The position numbers and the translations under genes were made by a program. Shown here piece after piece: positions 42,494 through 51,497 of a stretch of DNA of 64,000 nt. The first letter of the stretch is position 1. Each line of letters opens with the position of its first letter. Source of the stretch: Methylotenera sp. (lineage in GTDB: Bacteria; Pseudomonadota; Gammaproteobacteria; Burkholderiales; Methylophilaceae). A model generated the notes under the pieces. The model did not search any database, was not told the DNA's origin, and saw only the letters and a list, made by a program, of their open reading frames with translations. The stretch is taken from contig JAHRYP010000008.1 of assembly GCA_020622105.1 (NCBI GenBank), positions 1-64,000 of the forward strand. The letters are read 5' to 3'.

Positions 42494-43006
42494 ATGTATA
42501 TTGACACTACATCCTCGTCAGCTGCGACTGAGATTGAGCACTACCTAAAACCCATGGCACGGCAATGCATTAATTTCAGATTAGACTACCGTCAAATCTC
42601 TGAAATGCTTAAAACGGTACTCGTTTCGGTAGCAGAAAGTGAATTTACTATTGAAGGTAAATCTCAGACCGACAGCCGCATTTCATTGCTGACTGGAGTG
42701 CACCGCAAAGATGTGCGGCGCTTGCTCAGCCGTGATCAAAACAAAACGCTCTCACGTCAACATGGTTTAATTACCAAGCTGATTACAGCCTGGCTTGAAA
42801 CGCCAGAGCTCATTGGTAAAGATGGAGAACCTAAACCGATTCCACGCCACCCGCACCCGGATTATTCAACCTCATTTGCCGAACTTGCAGAGACATTGAC
42901 CACTGACATCCATGCGCGAGCACTGTGGGATGAATGCATGAATAGCGGCATAGTGAGCCTGACTGATGATGGCATGGTGCATTTAATGACAGGTAACCAC
43001 ATCTAG
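42494..43006 (+). CDS. DUF6502 family putative HTH protein
   Basis: A 170-residue soluble protein. The first half matches the DUF6502 pattern as I remember it: a helical region YLKPMARQCINFRLDYRQISEMLKTVLVSVAESEF, then TDSRISLLTGVHRKDVRRLL, which looks like a helix-turn-helix. The second half carries WLETPELIGKDGEPKPIPRH and DIHARALWDECMNSGIVSLTDDGMVHL, reminiscent of a winged-helix continuation. The function is unknown; DNA binding is plausible. It converges on the fadL gene 207 bases away. Confidence 0.7.
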   Translation: MYIDTTSSSAATEIEHYLKPMARQCINFRLDYRQISEMLKTVLVSVAESEFTIEGKSQTDSRISLLTGVHRKDVRRLLSRDQNKTLSRQHGLITKLITAWLETPELIGKDGEPKPIPRHPHPDYSTSFAELAETLTTDIHARALWDECMNSGIVSLTDDGMVHLMTGNHI

Positions 43007-43213: not shown

Positions 43214-44557
43214 TTAAAAAGCATGCGTATATTGCATGCTTAATACGTCAACACCACTGTCGTAGCCACCAGCCAATCTTCGCGTAATAGCAGGCTGCTC
43301 CGACACTAACGGGCTACTGAGATTAAGTGATACATCTTTCATAAAAATGTGCAAATAGCCTATATCCAAATGATCTGCGCTGCTCATTTTAAAGTTAGCA
43401 CCCAAGCCCAGAACCCATCGGCTTTGATCCGGAATACGTGGTGTTAGATATGCTTCAGAGACAGGAGACTCATCATAGGCAACACCAAAACGCAGCTTCC
43501 AGTCATCAGTATATTGATATGTAGCGCCCAAGGCATAACGTCGAGTATTGTGCCAGTGCTGTTGGGTTACGTTTATTAACGCCCCGCTGTTGCGCTCCAC
43601 GCTCAATGCTTTAAATTGGCTCCAACGCGTCCATATAACATCACCCATGATGCTCCAACGATCATTCAGCTGATGAAGAATGCTTACCAGCGCTGTTTCC
43701 GGCAAAGTAATGTCCGCTTTGATTGACACGTTAGCTAAATCAGGCAAACCGCTTAATTCGAGTGGTACGCTATAAAACTTAGCCTCTCCCTCTAAGTGAT
43801 GACCAACTTTGGATCGGTAAGCGAGACCAAGTCGAGTGCCCTGTACAGGCTCAAGCAGCAGACCAAGATTGTAACCCCAACTCCAATCATTGCCTTTCAG
43901 TTCAAGGTTGCCATCATGCGCCTGAGGGGCTGCGCAAGTTTCAACTCCGGCCATGGCACATATCGCGCCGAAATCCACAGCGTTGCTAAGTTCAGCACTA
44001 ATGTACTGTGCGTTAACACCAAAACCCAGGGAAAGCTTATCATTGACCTGATAAGCCATAGCAGGATTAATATTAATTGTGCTTAAATCAGATTTGATAG
44101 CATCGTAACGACCTACCCAGCGACTATCGTATTCAGTTTTTAAGCCAAATGGAGAATTGATACCCAATCCGATTTTTATATGGTCGTTAACATCCGTGGC
44201 AAAATATAAGTTTGGCAAAAAAGCCCAGTCGCCAGCCTCACCACCAGATCCGCCTGTTAATAATGGATCTCCTACACCTGCGCCAATAAGCGTTCTAGAA
44301 TCATTATTGTTAAAATTAATAGATGATTTGATAGCATAGCCTGCCACTACTAGCTGAGAGCCTTTTACTCGCGAAAGCCCTGCAGGATTAGAAAGAATGG
44401 TACTGGCATCTTCTGCCGCAGAACCAGCACCGGCAAATGCGTTACCGATACTGCCACCGCTTTGCTCTGTCAGCGCAAAACCTGCAGCTTGTATGTTAGT
44501 AGAAATCGTAAGCAAAGCGCCCAATAACATTGGGCGCATGTAGTCATGCTTTATCAC
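43214..44557 (-). CDS. fadL: FadL/OmpP1-type long-chain fatty acid outer-membrane channel
   Basis: A roughly 447-residue outer-membrane protein. After a signal peptide (MLLGALLTISTNIQA) comes GFALTEQSGGSIGNAFAGAGSAAEDASTILSNPAGLSRV, the NPA-containing FadL hatch signature, then a 14-strand barrel ending in QYTHAF with terminal Phe. Members move hydrophobic molecules, especially long-chain fatty acids, by lateral diffusion. I prefer the GTG start at 44557 (AAGG eight bases upstream); ATG codons at 44578 and 44539 are alternatives. Only about 25 bases separate it from the upstream response-regulator gene on the same strand, so it is probably the last gene of the phc-like operon. That link to a fatty-acid-ester signalling system is notable. 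Confidence 0.88.
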   Translation of the reverse strand: MIKHDYMRPMLLGALLTISTNIQAAGFALTEQSGGSIGNAFAGAGSAAEDASTILSNPAGLSRVKGSQLVVAGYAIKSSINFNNNDSRTLIGAGVGDPLLTGGSGGEAGDWAFLPNLYFATDVNDHIKIGLGINSPFGLKTEYDSRWVGRYDAIKSDLSTININPAMAYQVNDKLSLGFGVNAQYISAELSNAVDFGAICAMAGVETCAAPQAHDGNLELKGNDWSWGYNLGLLLEPVQGTRLGLAYRSKVGHHLEGEAKFYSVPLELSGLPDLANVSIKADITLPETALVSILHQLNDRWSIMGDVIWTRWSQFKALSVERNSGALINVTQQHWHNTRRYALGATYQYTDDWKLRFGVAYDESPVSEAYLTPRIPDQSRWVLGLGANFKMSSADHLDIGYLHIFMKDVSLNLSSPLVSEQPAITRRLAGGYDSGVDVLSMQYTHAF

Positions 44558-44582
44558 GGAATAGCCTTGATCTATCATTGTA

Positions 44583-45590
44583 TTAATTACAAAGCCGGTC
44601 AAACCACTTCACCAAACTAACCTGAGCATTGGGTGCCAAAAACGGCTCCATAGTAAATTGAACGCCGGTTTCCAGGTTTTTAAGTTGCAATGTGTATCCG
44701 GCATCATGTAGCCAGATCAGAAATGCCAGCCATGATGCATGTTGTGCAGAAACTTGTGCATCGGAACGCGCTTCCAGAAACTCTGCAAAATTTTGCATAT
44801 CGCTAAAAGCAGCAACGCCATTTTCCGAAATTTGGACCTTGCCTTTTAACACCTCCGTAAGTACCCTTAGCCCATCAGTAGCCTGGCTATTGTGATAATT
44901 TTGCCTTATTTCTTCCAGACTCTTTCGCACTGCATAACCAAACTGTCCACTACGCATCGACTCCACGCTCACTATGTCCGAATAATCCATTGCATGCCAA
45001 TCAGGCTCTGAAGGCAACGTAATGCCGGCACTATGCGCGGTAGATAGATAAGCTTCTATAGATAACGCATCCATAGATGCAGCAAGGCTGGCACAAAGCG
45101 CATACAAGGTGCCAATACGATTCGAAACAATGAGCTTCTTCCAGACCATCATTTTCTCACGTAGCAAATGTGCATGCTCCTTGCGCAAATTTGCTAAATC
45201 CAGCGCCTGTTTTAATTCCATCCTGATAGCAGATATTTCCCATGGCTTTTGAATATAACGATGGATTTGCCCTTGATTAACAGCCTCTACAGTTTGTTCC
45301 AGTTCTGAATAAGCCGTAGTCAATATCCGGACGATGTGTGGATACTTTGTAAGTGCATAAAGCAATAGCTCATTGCCATATCCGCCGGGCATACGCTGAT
45401 CTGACACCAGCACTAAAAGTGTTCCCGCATGCTGATCAAGCAGGCGCTTGCCCTCTTCTACAGAGCTTCCAGTGATCACTGGTGCGAGCGAATTGATGGC
45501 TCTTTGAAAATACTTTACGGCAGTTGCTTCGTCATCAACGAATAATATCTGCGGTGCAGTGATAGCTTGATTACCGATTACTTGCTCCAT
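44583..45590 (-). CDS. Response regulator, PhcQ-like
   Basis: A 335-residue protein with an N-terminal receiver domain (about 12-130): acid pair D19/D20, phospho-acceptor D64 in LVSDQRMPGG, T91/T92 and K115 in YIQKPW. A short helical linker (ELKQALDLANLRKEHAHLLREK) follows, then a roughly 180-residue C-terminal domain without DNA-binding or enzymatic motif that I recognise. It occupies the phcQ position in the Ralstonia phcBSRQ order, with similar length (about 350 residues as I recall). PhcQ modulates quorum-dependent genes together with PhcR. It starts 69 bases after the upstream hybrid kinase. Confidence 0.75.
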   Translation of the reverse strand: MEQVIGNQAITAPQILFVDDEATAVKYFQRAINSLAPVITGSSVEEGKRLLDQHAGTLLVLVSDQRMPGGYGNELLLYALTKYPHIVRILTTAYSELEQTVEAVNQGQIHRYIQKPWEISAIRMELKQALDLANLRKEHAHLLREKMMVWKKLIVSNRIGTLYALCASLAASMDALSIEAYLSTAHSAGITLPSEPDWHAMDYSDIVSVESMRSGQFGYAVRKSLEEIRQNYHNSQATDGLRVLTEVLKGKVQISENGVAAFSDMQNFAEFLEARSDAQVSAQHASWLAFLIWLHDAGYTLQLKNLETGVQFTMEPFLAPNAQVSLVKWFDRLCN

Positions 45591-45659
45591 TTTATTGCTC
45601 CATTTTTATTGATTTGAGTGCCATTTATATTTTCAAAGCCATAGATACACAGCCAAACT

Positions 45660-46799
45660 TTAGCTCGTTCCTGAAGACTTTAATCTGGCTTTGGTGGGAG
45701 GAAATTTCAGTGTGACAATCGTGTTTGATTCGGGCGTAGACGAAATAACAATATCACCGCCAAACGAGTGCATGACACGTCGACAAAAAACCATGCCCCA
45801 GCCCTTACCGCCAGAATCTGCATGCGTTGTAAACGGAGTTTCCATCAGTCGCGACAATATATCTGGCGGTATGCATGGACCATTATTACTAATGCAAATT
45901 TGGGGGGTATCATCAACCAGAATGCTAAAAGTAACTTGAGGCAACAAGTGCCCCTTAAGTGCTCGCAAGGCATTACTCAAGATGCTGGACAAAACCAGTG
46001 CAACGCAGTTGGGTAAGGCCGTCACCTTGAAATCTTTCTGAATATCAACCTTAATAGCTGCGTGTTGCTCAGGCGTTAACGGATAAGAATCAAGCAAAGA
46101 CAACACCATCTGATGTGCTGTCATTCCACTGTGGCAGTTAATTCGCGGGTTAATGCTATGAATCGAATTTACAAAAGACAGCAGTAAAGATAAGCAATAT
46201 TGAGCATTGTCATTGATCGCTAATGCCGCCTTGCCCACTTCTGTCATAGGCTGACACGCCCAGTTTTCATCGCTAACACGACGCTGTATTCCCTGCGAAA
46301 AGTTAGCAATGGATGCTAGTGGCGTATTCAACTCATGCGCAAGAAAATTAAGCGTTTCATTCATTGCGATGAGTCTCTGCTGCCTTGTAGTGCGTTCCCA
46401 AGATAACGCATACGCTTGTCGCAATGTATTTTTAACTTGAGTGACATTTAAGGGCTTTTCGAGAATACGAAATACCTCGCCCGAATTAACCGTATGCAGC
46501 AACGTCTCCCTATCCGCATATGCGGTCACCAGAATACGAATAACATGCGGAAACTCACGTTCAATCTGACATAATAAATCGCCGCCATCCCGACCTGGCA
46601 TCCGATAATCTGTAACAAGAATACCGATGCGCAAAGACTTATCACGCAACATCTCAATCGCCTCGTCCGCACCTGATGCAGTCAGCACATCAAACTCACT
46701 TTCCACTGAACGCAGAAAGTACTTTTGTGCCATCTCTTCATCGTCTACATACAGGATGGGAATCGCGCTGAAATCATGCGTATTGGATAAAGCTTTCAT
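45660..46799 (-). CDS. Receiver-histidine kinase hybrid, PhcR-like
   Basis: A 379-residue protein combining an N-terminal receiver (D19/D20, phospho-acceptor D64 in VTDYRMPGRDG, T92 and K115 in ILEKPL) with a C-terminal histidine kinase: H155 in FLAHELNTPLASI, N-box SSILSNALRALKG, G-box GKGWGMVFCRRVMHSFGG. This unusual order, with a receiver domain followed by a kinase core, is the signature of PhcR. Its ATG overlaps the stop of the upstream kinase (TAATG), so the two are translationally coupled. It likely accepts phosphate from the membrane kinase and passes or removes it downstream. Confidence 0.82.
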   Translation of the reverse strand: MKALSNTHDFSAIPILYVDDEEMAQKYFLRSVESEFDVLTASGADEAIEMLRDKSLRIGILVTDYRMPGRDGGDLLCQIEREFPHVIRILVTAYADRETLLHTVNSGEVFRILEKPLNVTQVKNTLRQAYALSWERTTRQQRLIAMNETLNFLAHELNTPLASIANFSQGIQRRVSDENWACQPMTEVGKAALAINDNAQYCLSLLLSFVNSIHSINPRINCHSGMTAHQMVLSLLDSYPLTPEQHAAIKVDIQKDFKVTALPNCVALVLSSILSNALRALKGHLLPQVTFSILVDDTPQICISNNGPCIPPDILSRLMETPFTTHADSGGKGWGMVFCRRVMHSFGGDIVISSTPESNTIVTLKFPPTKARLKSSGTS

Positions 46800-48142
46800 T
46801 ACGTCGCTCGCGGCAAGTCAAAAATCATTTTGGCCCATTCGCCCAAAGCACTTTCAGCGCGCAAAGTGCCGCCATGTCGTGTAATTACGCCATAACTGAT
46901 ACTAAGACCAAGCCCTAAACCTTGCCCAACAGCTCTTGTAGTAAAAAATGGCTCAAATACGCGGGATAGATTTTCCGGCGCTATTCCGGGGCCATTATCC
47001 TGCACGGTAACGTACAGTCTGTCAGCATGCCAGACAGCAGATACATGAATAGAGGGGTATGTTCGACTTACCTTACGTAATGCGAGCGCGGCATTGCTGA
47101 ACAAGTTAATTAATACGCCGACGACAGCGGCCTCATCTCCATGCACCAAGCTGTCCTGGGGAATGTCGCGCGTGATGGTAATGCCTTTAATCTCGTGCCC
47201 TACCAGACGCAGCGAAGAATTAACAGCGCGCTCCAACATAAAATCAGCTTCGCTTCGCTCAGTCTCGCTGGGGCGATAAGCGAAAATTTTAAGGTCGGAA
47301 ACAATGTGCTGAATGCGCTGCATGCCATGCTGAGCGTCAACAAGACACTCCTTAAGCGACTGTGTGGTTTTAACTGCCGGCTCTTCCATGGCAATACTGA
47401 TCGCCATCAGGCAGTAATTGACTGGGTTATTTACCTCATGCAACAATCCGGCGGCCAGCGTACCGATAGAGGCCATCTTTTCCTGTTGCAGCATCTGGCC
47501 TTTAATCTCAGCCAGATTTTTATTGGTTTCTTCAAGCAGAGCATTCTTTTCTGCTACTTCGGCTTTAAGTCTAAATAATGAAAAACGGGCACGTTCGTTA
47601 TAAACAGTATAGACAATGCTGATGACAGAAAACATTATTAAGAACAAAGATGAAGTCAGGAAGTTAGTTTCAAAACCAATTCCATTTGGATGTATAGCGC
47701 AAGCAACTAAGTATATTAGATAGGTCAAAATAGAAAATAATGTGTTTTGCCAGACACCGAATGCCAACACTATGCCAGATCCAAAAATTGCTAGCGGTAA
47801 TCCGATGTAATAGGATGAAGCAGCACCATCGGTGCTATATATCATCCAACAAATCATAATTTGTGAACATAGCAACCATGCAAAGGTTAATTCGTGTACA
47901 TAGATGCGCCCAAATCCTGTTTTAAGCAATCTTATTATGGACAAAATTGCCGTGATACAGACTAATCGAGCAACAATAAACGGCAATAACTCTTGAGGGT
48001 ACAAACTGTAATCAAGGCCGATACCTAACAATATAAGTGCACAGGCCGTATATGCACAACCCGGGCTGGATTTGAACCTAAAGTCACTCAGCGAAGCATT
48101 AAACTCATTAAATAATCTATCAGTTAGTTGTCCTCGCATCAT
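46799..48142 (-). CDS. Membrane sensor histidine kinase, PhcS-like
   Basis: A 447-residue kinase with about six hydrophobic helices in residues 30-185 and no large periplasmic loop, as expected for a receptor of a membrane-soluble ligand. After a coiled coil ([23 protein letters not shown]) comes the H-box [16 protein letters not shown] with H235, close to the autophosphorylated His near position 230 of Ralstonia PhcS, then N-box [10 protein letters not shown] and [18 protein letters not shown]. Overlapping start and stop codons join it to the phcB homologue upstream and the phcR homologue downstream. It would sense the fatty-acid methyl ester produced by the upstream enzyme. Confidence 0.85.
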
Positions 48143-49533
48143 TAAGCAACCACTACCTCTGCAAATACATTGACACCAGTACCATCTACGTAAACTTTGT
48201 GTTGAGTAGAGTCATCAGGAAGAAGTAATTTCATTTGCGCCTCATCACGATAGATCAGATACCATTCCATTAAATGATCCATACCAAACTTATCAGGATT
48301 ACTGGAATGTACGTTAGTAATAAGTAGCCTGCCTTTACTACGCGTACGCGTCGCAAAGTGAGAGGTTAATCTTGAGCAAACCTTATCAGAAAAATAATCA
48401 AATAAGCCTGCACAATAAGCAGCATCGTATTCCTTGGTTTCTGGCGAACTCTTATCAACACTGCGCTTGAGCAATTGATGCACAGATTCATGAATATAAT
48501 TAATAATTATAGATTTACCGACTTTCTCGGAGATGCCTGTCAATATGCCGCGTGTTCGCGCTAGCGTCTCCTCACTAAAATCTACTAAATCGAAAGACAA
48601 GAATTCTGGATTAGGGTAACTCTCAAGAAAACGCTGAATTTCTACCGCTGGGCCACAACCAACATTCAGAACGCGGAAAGGTCGTCCTGCCTTCTTGGCA
48701 GATTCAGCAATACTTATTAAAAATCCCACTAAAATGTCAATGCGGTTACGGTGGGCTATTACAACATCAGCATTTAAAAATCCTGTATTCACAATCTGGA
48801 AATAAGTACTTGGTCCTTGGCGAGGATCCTCCAGCATCTGACTAACCATGACATGATCACCCGCGTAACCAAGCGGCTTGGTAAAGGCTCGAAATACAAA
48901 CGGAGCTCTTAAAAGAAAAGGATGTAATGCCGCTTGGGCATAGGCACGGTGTGCAGGAGCAGCCTCCACATCAACTAACGCGGCTTCATTTACAAAAGCA
49001 TCAAAGTAATTCTTTAATTTTTCCAGCAATGGTACGGCAAGTTCGTAAAAAACATCTTCTCGTAATCGCCCATCTACTCGGGGCAAAGACTCAGTCAAAT
49101 CAACCTGCTCCACCCAGCGTGAAACATCTGACAGATAAGCACGGAATTCATTTACGACAATCTGATAATCGCGTCGAATCAGAAAACGCTCAGTCCAATC
49201 CTGGACAAAAGCCTTTGCTTCTACGCCTACAGCACCCGGGGTAATCACCACATCATATAAATCTTGCCATTCATCAATCAGTGTCACCGAAACAACAGCT
49301 GTAAGACCGGTATTCACTAAGCTAATTACAACGGCTTTTCCAAGGTAGGCAACCTAATTACCGATTCTGATTGTAAGGTCGCCTAGCACCTCACTGATTT
49401 GCACGATGGAATAAGGGTTGTAAACCTCCATCACAAGCGATTTTCTTTGCAGCTTAACTATCGTGCCTCGCACAGATTCGCCAACAGTGTTTTTGAAGCT
49501 GATCAATGGATCAATTTGTGATTGAGAATACAA
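48142..49533 (-). pseudogene. PhcB-like methyltransferase (3-hydroxy fatty acid methyl ester synthase) with one in-frame amber codon
   Basis: In Ralstonia PhcB makes the autoinducers 3-OH PAME/3-OH MAME by methylating a 3-hydroxy fatty acid. From the TTG at 49533 (AGG upstream) the frame encodes 463 residues. An N-terminal PilZ-like stretch (ISFKNTVGESVRGTIVKLQR, VMEVYNPYSIVQISEVLGDL) precedes a helical middle part. The methyltransferase domain has the SAM motif FRVLNVGCGPAVEIQRFLE, FDLVDFSEETL and YDAAYCAGLFDYF. A TAG at 49354-49356 interrupts it at codon 60; reading continues open on both sides. Translation restarting at the GTG at 49317 would give a 391-residue protein with the whole catalytic domain, so activity may survive. 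The stop codon overlaps the kinase start. Confidence 0.78.
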
Positions 49534-49559
49534 ATCAAGGCGCCTTATTAAAGTTTATT

Positions 49560-49625
49560 TACCATAATGATACCCATTAAATATGGTAATATTTTCCATT
49601 TACAATGGGATTTTTTTCCATTGTA
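49560..49625. promoter_or_regulatory. Cluster of overlapping dyads between the phc-like operon and the divergent regulators
   Basis: Several inverted repeats crowd an AT-rich segment: TACCAT (49560-49565) with ATGGTA (49583-49588); CCATT-TAC-AATGG (49596-49608); and TACAATGG (49601-49608) with CCATTGTA (49618-49625), an 8-9-8 perfect repeat. The shared core CCATT/AATGG appears four times. The position, 27 bases beyond the phcB start and 64 bases before the plus-strand response regulator, is where a bidirectional operator is expected. The binding factor is unknown; the solo LuxR nearby is a candidate. Confidence 0.5.
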
Positions 49626-49688
49626 TCAAAATAATTAATTATCAAAGAGACTTTTTGTGAAAAGCCAATTTTTCGGGGCAGGACTTCA

Positions 49689-50729
49689 ATGAACATACTC
49701 TTACCTATCTATCAGCATCCGGTTTTAGTGGTATTAATAGATGACAATCAGAGTTATCTGGATAGCGTTACATTCCAGCTGGATTCACGGCTGATTTGCA
49801 AAACCTTCACTGATACAAAAGTCGCAATTAATTGGATCAAGGGGGCATATCAGCATTGCGTGTCAGATGCGGCGCACCCTATTCACGTAGGCTACGATGA
49901 TGAAACCTCATGCCTTGAACGGCGAAACGCGTCAATAAACCTGAATGAAATTTACTATGCTGTATTAAATAAACAGCGTTTTAATATTCCAGCGGTAGTG
50001 GTTGTCGACTACGCAATGCCACATATGAATGGCGTAGATCTTTGTGAAGCTCTGCAAAATATTCCGTGTAAAAAAATATTACTTACTGGGCAGGCTGATG
50101 AAAAGGTCGCTGTTGATGCATTTAACAACAAACTTATTGATCAATTTATTAAAAAAAATGACCCAATTGCCATTAGTCGTTTAGAGCTGGCAATCAACTC
50201 ACTTAAAAAAGTGTTTTTTAGCGAGCAAACCAGCACTCTAAAAGATTTACTGACAAGACACACCTATGCATTTTTGGCAGATGCCGCCATCGCGGAACTG
50301 GTCGAGCAACTTTATCAAGACCATGGGTTTATAGAACATTATTTATTCCCTAACCCATCCGGCATACTTTTCATAGATGTGAATGGTAAAGCCAAACTAA
50401 TGGTAGTAGAAACTGAAGCGAGCCTGATGGCGCATTATGAAATGGCGCAACATCAAAATGCGCCTCCGGAACTTCTTGAGTCGTTAAAAAAACATCTACT
50501 AATCCCGTTTTTCTCTGATAGTGATGGCGTATATGACAGCAGTATCAATAACAAATGGATGAACTACTGTCGGCCATCGCAACTATGCAAGGGCACACAA
50601 AATTATTACTGGGCTATTTTTGAGTTTCCTTCGCATTATTTACATGGTGATATTTATTCATACGCTAATTTCTTAATGCTGAGCAAGACAACTCCAGCCA
50701 ACCAAAACCAAGCAACAGCAGAGCCATAG
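49689..50729 (+). CDS. Atypical response regulator with an unidentified C-terminal domain
   Basis: A 346-residue protein. A receiver domain can be followed from VLIDDNQSYLDSV (D18/D19) to VVVVDYAMPHMNGVDL (phospho-acceptor D107), LLTGQA (T133) and QFIKKND (K155/K156), but the stretch between the first helix and strand 3 is about 40 residues longer than usual. The remaining 190 residues (LKDLLTRHTYAFLADAAIAELVEQLYQDHGF onward, with YLFPNPSGILFID) show no DNA-binding motif that I know. Its length and its setting beside an alpha-hydroxyketone/PhcBSR-like system recall LqsR/JqsR regulators, but I cannot confirm homology. The ATG has an AGGA seven bases upstream. It precedes the luxR gene by 36 bases, probably in one operon. 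Confidence 0.7.
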   Translation: MNILLPIYQHPVLVVLIDDNQSYLDSVTFQLDSRLICKTFTDTKVAINWIKGAYQHCVSDAAHPIHVGYDDETSCLERRNASINLNEIYYAVLNKQRFNIPAVVVVDYAMPHMNGVDLCEALQNIPCKKILLTGQADEKVAVDAFNNKLIDQFIKKNDPIAISRLELAINSLKKVFFSEQTSTLKDLLTRHTYAFLADAAIAELVEQLYQDHGFIEHYLFPNPSGILFIDVNGKAKLMVVETEASLMAHYEMAQHQNAPPELLESLKKHLLIPFFSDSDGVYDSSINNKWMNYCRPSQLCKGTQNYYWAIFEFPSHYLHGDIYSYANFLMLSKTTPANQNQATAEP

Positions 50730-50765: not shown

Positions 50766-51497
50766 ATGGTGAATTTTGATAAATTATTTAGACTAATGGG
50801 ATGTGATAGAGAAGAAATCTGGTCAGACACGCTTCTTTTACTGGCTGATAGTTACGGCTTTTCACAGCTATTCTATAGCATCAATTTAAACAAACAGGCG
50901 CCGCTAACATCTGCTTCAACCTATAGCAACTACGCACCCATATGGCTAAAAATGTATGAAGATTCTTTTTGGAACATAGACCCGATTGTTAAACACTGCA
51001 AGCACAGCAACATGCCATTAATATGGGAGGAGAAAACCTTTAAATCCCGCCAGGAAATGCAGATGTATAAAACAGCACAAGTTTATGGCTTGCACAAAGG
51101 GATCGCTTTTCCTATGCACGGGGCACACGCTGAGTTTGCCATACTGAATCTGGTTATGAATGACAAAGCAAAAACGCCATCGCAACAAGAGTTAGACGAA
51201 ATAATATCCGATTGGGCTCTTATTCGAGATTATGTTTTTGAATCATCAAAAAAATTTACCATACTGCAAAGTCATGAGCAATCTGAAAAAGCATTACTCA
51301 CGAAAAGAGAAATAGAATTCCTGCAATTGGCAACCGAAGGAAAGTCATCTTGGGATATGTCCGTGATCTGCAATTGCACTGAGGCAACAGTTAATTTCCA
51401 TTTTGCTAATATTCGCAAAAAGCTCAAAGTTAAAACACGTCAGCAGGCAATTGTGAAAGCCATGCAATTAGGGATAACTTTCCTCGATGGACATTGA
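50766..51497 (+). CDS. LuxR-family quorum-sensing regulator without adjacent luxI (solo)
   Basis: A 243-residue transcription factor. The autoinducer-binding domain keeps the six canonical pocket residues at W60, Y64, D72, P73, W87 and G112 (equivalents of TraR W57, Y61, D70, P71, W85, G113). The C-terminal HTH (about 178-240) is LTKREIEFLQLATEGKSSWDMSVICNCTEATVNFHFANIRKKLKVKTRQQ, shown here by its ends LTKREIEFLQLA and VNFHFANIRKKL. Retaining all pocket residues predicts that it can bind an N-acyl-homoserine lactone. No luxI-type synthase lies in the window, so the ligand is either made elsewhere or supplied by neighbours. An AAGGAG site lies seven bases before the ATG. Confidence 0.88.
   Translation: MVNFDKLFRLMGCDREEIWSDTLLLLADSYGFSQLFYSINLNKQAPLTSASTYSNYAPIWLKMYEDSFWNIDPIVKHCKHSNMPLIWEEKTFKSRQEMQMYKTAQVYGLHKGIAFPMHGAHAEFAILNLVMNDKAKTPSQQELDEIISDWALIRDYVFESSKKFTILQSHEQSEKALLTKREIEFLQLATEGKSSWDMSVICNCTEATVNFHFANIRKKLKVKTRQQAIVKAMQLGITFLDGH

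Follow-up and report, generated by a model that had tools for sequence, protein, structure and literature searches.

What is the gene of an outer-membrane fatty-acid channel doing at the end of a quorum-sensing operon? The question is raised by a window of 64,000 nucleotides, the whole stretch of DNA analysed here, which belongs to Methylotenera sp. (contig JAHRYP010000008.1; assembly of 2.5 Mb in 53 contigs) and on whose minus strand five genes follow one another in the order phcB, phcS, phcR, phcQ, and fadL. The phcBSRQ genes are known, and FadL as a fifth gene is new to the Phc system. Judged from sequence, an operon of the Phc type with fadL as its last gene is supported by homology, synteny, and the conserved near-zero spacing between phcQ and fadL. 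On balance, we consider it probable that the locus belongs to the Phc quorum-sensing family and that FadL supplies it with a port for a long-chain acyl signal.

The first gene, phcB (48142..49533), codes for a putative signal methyltransferase with an N-terminal beta-rich domain, a helical linker, and an S-adenosylmethionine (SAM) methyltransferase domain, and it is interrupted by an in-frame TAG; the open reading frame finder lists for it a frame of 391 residues with a GTG start (48142-49317). phcS (46799..48142) encodes a sensor histidine kinase of 447 residues with Pfam HisKA and HATPase_c matches, phcR (45660..46799) a protein of 379 residues in which a receiver precedes a histidine kinase with His155 (Pfam receiver, HisKA, and HATPase), and phcQ (44583..45590) a protein of 335 residues made of a Pfam receiver, a long helix, and a C-terminal part of no known family. 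This C-terminal part is without a Pfam match, and blocks past residue 150 of the PhcQ model stand at a predicted local distance difference test score (pLDDT) of 45-85. The phosphorylation residues PhcS His235, PhcR Asp64, and PhcQ Asp64 are in place. The last gene, fadL (43214..44578, with a frame to 44602), encodes the outer-membrane long-chain fatty-acid channel (PF03349, Toluene_X, E 1.1e-107). A preliminary description of this DNA had recognised four minus-strand genes with the domain orders and gene order of phcBSRQ, which profiles, synteny, and conservation bear out beyond chance; it had also placed the PhcS histidine at 235 and start/stop overlaps at the B-S and S-R junctions, and both are confirmed, the overlaps being of one base each. 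The gap between phcR and phcQ is 69 nucleotides.

A search with PhcB listed at least 562 relatives in named genomes, from which 80 phcB loci were kept (the 80-locus set); nine further phcB loci came from genomes of the order, four of them duplicating loci of that set. The PhcB of the window is 53-83% identical to 10 homologues, with which it has invariant residues in common, and its PhcS is 48-77% identical to PhcS at other loci. Hits to PhcB, PhcS, and PhcQ occur throughout the 80-locus set and hits to PhcR at 75 of its loci; the remaining five (L035, L061, L067, L073, and L107) belong to Janthinobacterium and others. At 21 of the 80 loci, Paraburkholderia ones such as L069, L095, and L103 included, the PhcR hits cover fewer than 300 of the 379 residues, which may mean that PhcR is shortened or diverged there. 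The comparison with Ralstonia is based on protein lengths published in the accessible part of PMC8578825 and on Cupriavidus and other homologues rather than on the R. solanacearum sequence itself. The Ralstonia lengths (464-468 residues for PhcB, 368-374 for PhcR, and 336-337 for PhcQ) are similar to those found here, namely 463 codons for PhcB with the TAG included, 379 residues for PhcR, and 335 for PhcQ.

The likeness to the phcBSRQ genes of Ralstonia and Cupriavidus thus takes in the four proteins, their domain orders, their gene order, and their lengths, and phcS, phcR, and phcQ are syntenic with phcBSRQ loci of Burkholderiales. The AlphaFold model of a Nitrotoga PhcB homologue (mean pLDDT 73.9) matches SAM methyltransferases of the PDB (best E 2.0e-9), and the only Pfam match of PhcB is a sub-threshold one to a methyltransferase. 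The differences from the Ralstonia and Cupriavidus operons are the FadL gene in fifth place, a LasR-like luxR beyond lqsR, and the interrupted phcB. At E <=0.001, PhcB has matches in five of 101 relatives, including one weak match. In the order, 13 of 399 genomes match it, 10 strongly and three weakly (26-31%), the weak ones being probably other methyltransferases.

The product of the fifth gene is, by its sequence, a true and canonical FadL. Its best PDB matches are the FadL chains 3dwo (E 9e-48) and 1t16 (E 2.2e-42), and an AGF stretch aligns to residue 1 of the solved chains, which corresponds to a FadL-type mature N-terminus. That fadL follows phcQ on the same strand had been described correctly, but the interval of about 25 bases given for it fits a GTG at 44557, whereas the ATG at 44578 lies 4 nucleotides from the phcQ stop and makes the coupling tighter. 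Among 52 genomes of the window's genus (the congener set), which include the window genome (G000) and its relatives G011 and G048, the spacing is again 4 nucleotides in G011 and is 7 in G048. There is no room for a terminator between the two genes. A terminator-like hairpin at 44537-44517, considered as a separator of phcQ and fadL, was rejected: it falls within the coding part of fadL, past the start codon, and by eye it is not kept in G011.

FadL at 74-100% identity occurs in three of the 52 congeners only, G000, G011, and G048, where fadL ends the phc operon at one chromosomal site. Within the genus, PhcB was found in the same three genomes by the 101-genome search, and an LqsR orthologue (76-100%) is likewise confined to them among the congeners. 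The chance overlap of three with three in 52 is 4.5e-5; the three genomes share one chromosomal neighbourhood and hence count as one event.

The genus contains 21 FadL genes scoring above 300 bits, of which three stand at the end of a phc operon, nine beside rpfF, seven beside an acyl ligase (one of these, in G038, being a fragment), and two beside neither. The nine rpfF-linked genes are divergent to rpfF, which is followed by rpfC and, in eight cases, rpfG (the ninth contig begins in rpfC); their products are 43-52% identical to the phc-linked FadL. The rpfF-like protein matches the solved RpfF (3m6m) with an E of 3.1e-59. It scores 395.6 bits against an NCBIfam model of the crotonase family (cut-off 177), whereas against the RpfF model it stays at 237 bits, below the cut-off of 550. 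The fadL-rpfF-rpfC loci are likely to be a diffusible signal factor (DSF) system. rpfF is present in 13 of the 52 congeners in 14 copies. Its close type (73-100%) is found in 10 genomes and adjoins FadL in nine; in the remaining one, G033, rpfF lies 361 nucleotides from the start of its contig. At E <=1e-40, rpfF was detected in 71 of the 399 genomes of the order with 73 matches, of which 30 were examined with flanks of about 1.5 kb; FadL stands beside rpfF at both loci of the sister genus g10. The divergent pair of fadL and rpfF, accompanied by rpfC and in most cases by rpfG, was observed at L129, L130, L134-L138, L140, L141, L221, and L222, from nine genomes of the genus and two of the sister genus.

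The RpfF/RpfC/RpfG (DSF) systems of these relatives resemble the operon of the window in having a fatty-acid-type signal and a related FadL beside the synthase gene. They differ in that the synthase is a crotonase rather than a methyltransferase and that FadL is divergent from rpfF rather than at the end of an operon. In the FadL tree, the phc-linked proteins form a separate clade (100/100) and the rpf-linked and ligase-linked ones are intermixed, so a single shared origin of the link between FadL and signalling is not supported. The FadL of G029 (L144) is split, its 5' piece lying in another frame with stops, and it may be broken.

How FadL could serve such a system can be put as a sequence of steps. 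For the chemistry, we infer that PhcB, when whole, would methylate a long-chain, probably 3-hydroxy, acyl group to give an ester signal, which in relatives with an intact phcB would leave the cell. FadL, whose co-transcription with the phc genes we also infer, would let the signal, which is poorly soluble, through the outer membrane, most likely into the cell. The inner-membrane kinase PhcS would then sense it and pass phosphate to PhcR and PhcQ, and the output would probably run through the divergent LqsR/PhcX-like and LasR-like LuxR regulators, not through PhcA. To our knowledge, the crossing of the outer membrane by very hydrophobic acyl signals has been little studied. A FadL gene in one acyl-signal operon and a related one beside another offer a direct genetic test of FadL as a signal port. 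The ExFadLO of Pseudomonas differs in exporting oxylipins, and we know of no Phc partner for it.

It has been reported that FadL mediates the uptake of long-chain N-acyl-homoserine lactones (AHLs) in Sinorhizobium fredii (PMC9938287). The rhizobial FadL is alike in acting on a quorum signal; it differs in that the signal is an AHL and in that, in the accessible part of that source, the gene is not described within a signal-synthesis operon. A role of FadL as signal channel is made more likely by a related FadL that adjoins another fatty-acid signal system within the bacterial family and by this rhizobial precedent. The earlier suggestion that FadL could admit or release the signal has in this way gained in likelihood, while the transport itself is presumed. 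A description of FadL linked to phc or to rpf/DSF was not found in the literature covered, outside which most subscription journals lie, and a 2026 review (PMC13220807) does not mention FadL in its main text.

The regulators predicted for the output lie on the plus strand, across a divergent intergenic region of 155 nucleotides (49534..49688) that is presumed to hold a shared promoter region. The first (49689..50729) is a response regulator of the LqsR/PhcX family with a Pfam receiver (Asp107 in VVDYAMP), whose best PDB match is 6sy9, entered as "Response regulator" (E 1.2e-42 over residues 5-311), which we take to be Legionella LqsR. The second (50766..51497) is a LuxR-type regulator with an autoinducer-binding domain (PF03472, Autoind_bind) and PF00196 (GerE), closest in the PDB to LasR (6mwz, E 7.3e-42). 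The aspartate of the DP motif, an AHL-binding residue in proteins of the LuxR type, is kept in G000 and G011, and G048 has a cysteine in its place. In the accessible part of PMC10653808, PhcX is an LqsR-family regulator next to phcBSRQ, and the adjacency is named for Hydrogenophaga, Cupriavidus, and Ralstonia; an LqsR/PhcX-family gene adjoining phcB is thus a further likeness to the Ralstonia system, the gene here being divergent and 155 nucleotides from the phcB start. Beyond the window's genus, lqsR is divergent from phcB at L030, L032, L034 (Nitrotoga), and L052 of the 80-locus set, which widens the range of the adjacency past the three published genera (PMC10653808, as far as its accessible text goes) to the window's genus, a Nitrotoga, and three metagenome-assembled relatives. 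At L106, a 32% LqsR match lies about 4.5 kb upstream of phcB. In a tree of PhcB built from 49 of the 91 rows, the lqsR-adjacent loci lie near each other in a group with a support of 80 that includes three loci without the adjacency, and a single old association of lqsR with phc is possible on these sequences. Among the loci fetched, luxR directly beyond lqsR is found only in G000, G011, and G048; at L038, some 2 kb upstream of phcB, there is a weak hit to LuxR (29%).

The preliminary description had noted that no phcA-like LysR gene lies nearby, which is correct, and had overlooked the two divergent regulators. The contig of the window yielded no LysR gene, and the six found in the genome are all on other contigs. 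Their best models are the CysB family, over its cut-off, and PunR, YafC, and NhaR, under theirs; none of the frames is near the 347 residues of PhcA, one of them being cut by a contig end. The use of E. coli LrhA as a stand-in for PhcA was abandoned as not discriminating, since Cupriavidus genomes gave best matches of 48% and of only 32%. Ralstonia PhcQ has been reported to bind and stabilise PhcA (PMC13320629); no PhcA was recognised here among the LysR genes found. We regard it as a tentative proposal, somewhat short of probable, that FadL is a dedicated quorum port recruited separately beside Phc and Rpf/DSF and that the locus forms a seven-gene unit of Phc kinases, LqsR, LuxR, and port without PhcA.

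The operon had been called complete, which does not hold for phcB. The end coordinate 49533 given for it stands as the likely start (TTG with an AAGG motif upstream), but the frame is not open from there and is closed by a TAG at codon 60 (49354-49356). For reading the frame upstream of the listed 391-residue one, 92 loci were fetched and 91 were readable (L028, which holds only the later part of phcB, was excluded); four of these come from a genome already counted, and the last 72 residues give 59 distinct sequences. At all 91 loci, at least 75 in-frame residues precede the equivalent of the 391-residue frame, with a conserved YNP motif in each, so the TAG cuts off an N-terminal domain present throughout. 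In G011 and G048, the DNA upstream likewise codes in frame, and phcB is intact in G011. In the 72-codon domain, 12 silent changes and a single non-silent one, the stop itself, are private to the window, and the stop is therefore either very young or a sequencing or assembly error. TAG is also the ordinary stop of the neighbouring lqsR and DUF6502 genes. Translation could restart at GTG 49317, where no obvious ribosome site is seen by eye. In the window strain, the stop may abolish or reduce signal synthesis and so leave a cell that would only listen; alternatively, it may be an error in the sequence.

The N-terminal domain has no Pfam match and appears in the model of the Nitrotoga homologue with about six strands at a pLDDT of mostly 60-70; a PilZ-like barrel was a guess that could not be confirmed. 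The domain varies less than the methyltransferase part: compared with G011, 27 silent and three non-silent differences were counted in its 72 codons (49318-49533), and 217 silent and 86 non-silent ones in the 391 codons of the methyltransferase part. According to the accessible text of PMC6989110, the change of R22 to cysteine in Ralstonia PhcB lowers signal production. R22 corresponds by count to an invariant arginine of the domain, which argues that the domain matters.

Several observations weigh against a FadL port for the Phc signal. No FadL hit was obtained at any locus of the 80-locus set within the DNA covered (tblastn, 1e-3; in 73 of the 80 this DNA extends 1 kb or more beyond the phcQ hit), nor at the nine further loci of the order, and Phc systems therefore exist without FadL. 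Within the genus, the seven ligase-linked FadL genes and the two beside neither type of neighbour point to other partners. For the second rpfF type (42-51%), none of the four copies, one of which lies at a contig end, gave a FadL hit in the stretch fetched; FadL was found beside rpfF at none of 28 loci of other families, some with shortened flanks; and two family members in genus g54, whose rpfF is more distant, have no FadL in the 14 kb fetched. Sensing by PhcS takes place in the inner membrane, which leaves the need for a port unproven, the port reading is based on genes and sequence, and phcB is interrupted in this assembly. Such findings leave room for FadL as an ordinary importer of environmental long-chain fatty acids, destined for membrane lipids via an acyl ligase and placed under density control by its position in the phc operon. 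The window FadL is canonical, and the ligase adjoining a third of the FadL genes of the genus (7 of 21) is an AMP-binding one, but no hit to that ligase was obtained in the phc and rpf stretches searched, and FadL is a partner common to two unrelated signal systems. A channel for feeding on fatty acids would moreover accompany beta-oxidation. In a search of the 52 congeners with 3HCDH_N (PF02737), no listed match exceeds 28.5 bits or extends past position 98 of 180; the model is noisy, matching 14 of 14 controls, 45 of the 52 congeners at E <=0.001, and 36 of them over the 22-bit cut-off with short matches. The lack of a convincing 3-hydroxyacyl-CoA dehydrogenase in the genus gives weak support to a signal port over fatty-acid feeding, and ordinary uptake seems to us rather unlikely.

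FadL might instead serve the LasR-like LuxR by admitting long-chain AHLs of other species, an eavesdropping role beside a PhcBSRQ system that works without it. The LuxR gene lies within the cluster and the rhizobial FadL takes up just such signals (PMC9938287, accessible part). A LuxI search (PF00765) gave no match in the window genome, but it matched no control genome either, and absence is not claimed. The cysteine of G048 in the AHL-binding motif speaks against this role, as does the lack of hits to the cluster LuxR in the rpf stretches searched, and we hold it to be very improbable. Another view would see the operon of the window strain as decaying, with phcB a fresh pseudogene and the remainder kept only temporarily. 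In favour is the TAG, which the window carries and all 91 homologous loci read lack, but the other operon genes are open, the ratio of private silent to non-silent changes indicates constraint until very recently, and a base-call or assembly error would look identical; decay is unlikely.

A promoter scan gave 11 hits against 20.9 expected from shuffles and is uninformative; it lists no consensus promoter in the phcB/lqsR intergenic region. A hairpin at the 3' end of fadL (43219..43241, minus strand, -11.4 kcal/mol), followed by a short U run, is a possible operon terminator; three of 200 shuffles fold as well, and the terminator scan does not list it. In G011, the corresponding hairpin is stronger with no U run after it, and in G048, the fold is no better than shuffles. 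The cluster is flanked in the window and in G011 by pst/DUF6502 on one side and, on the other, by a gene group of which clpB is the last; in G048, its parts are split over two contigs with the same flanks there in part. The DUF6502 gene (42494-43006 in the window) is found beyond fadL in all three cluster genomes, and it sits between the cluster and the pst genes wherever pst shares the contig.

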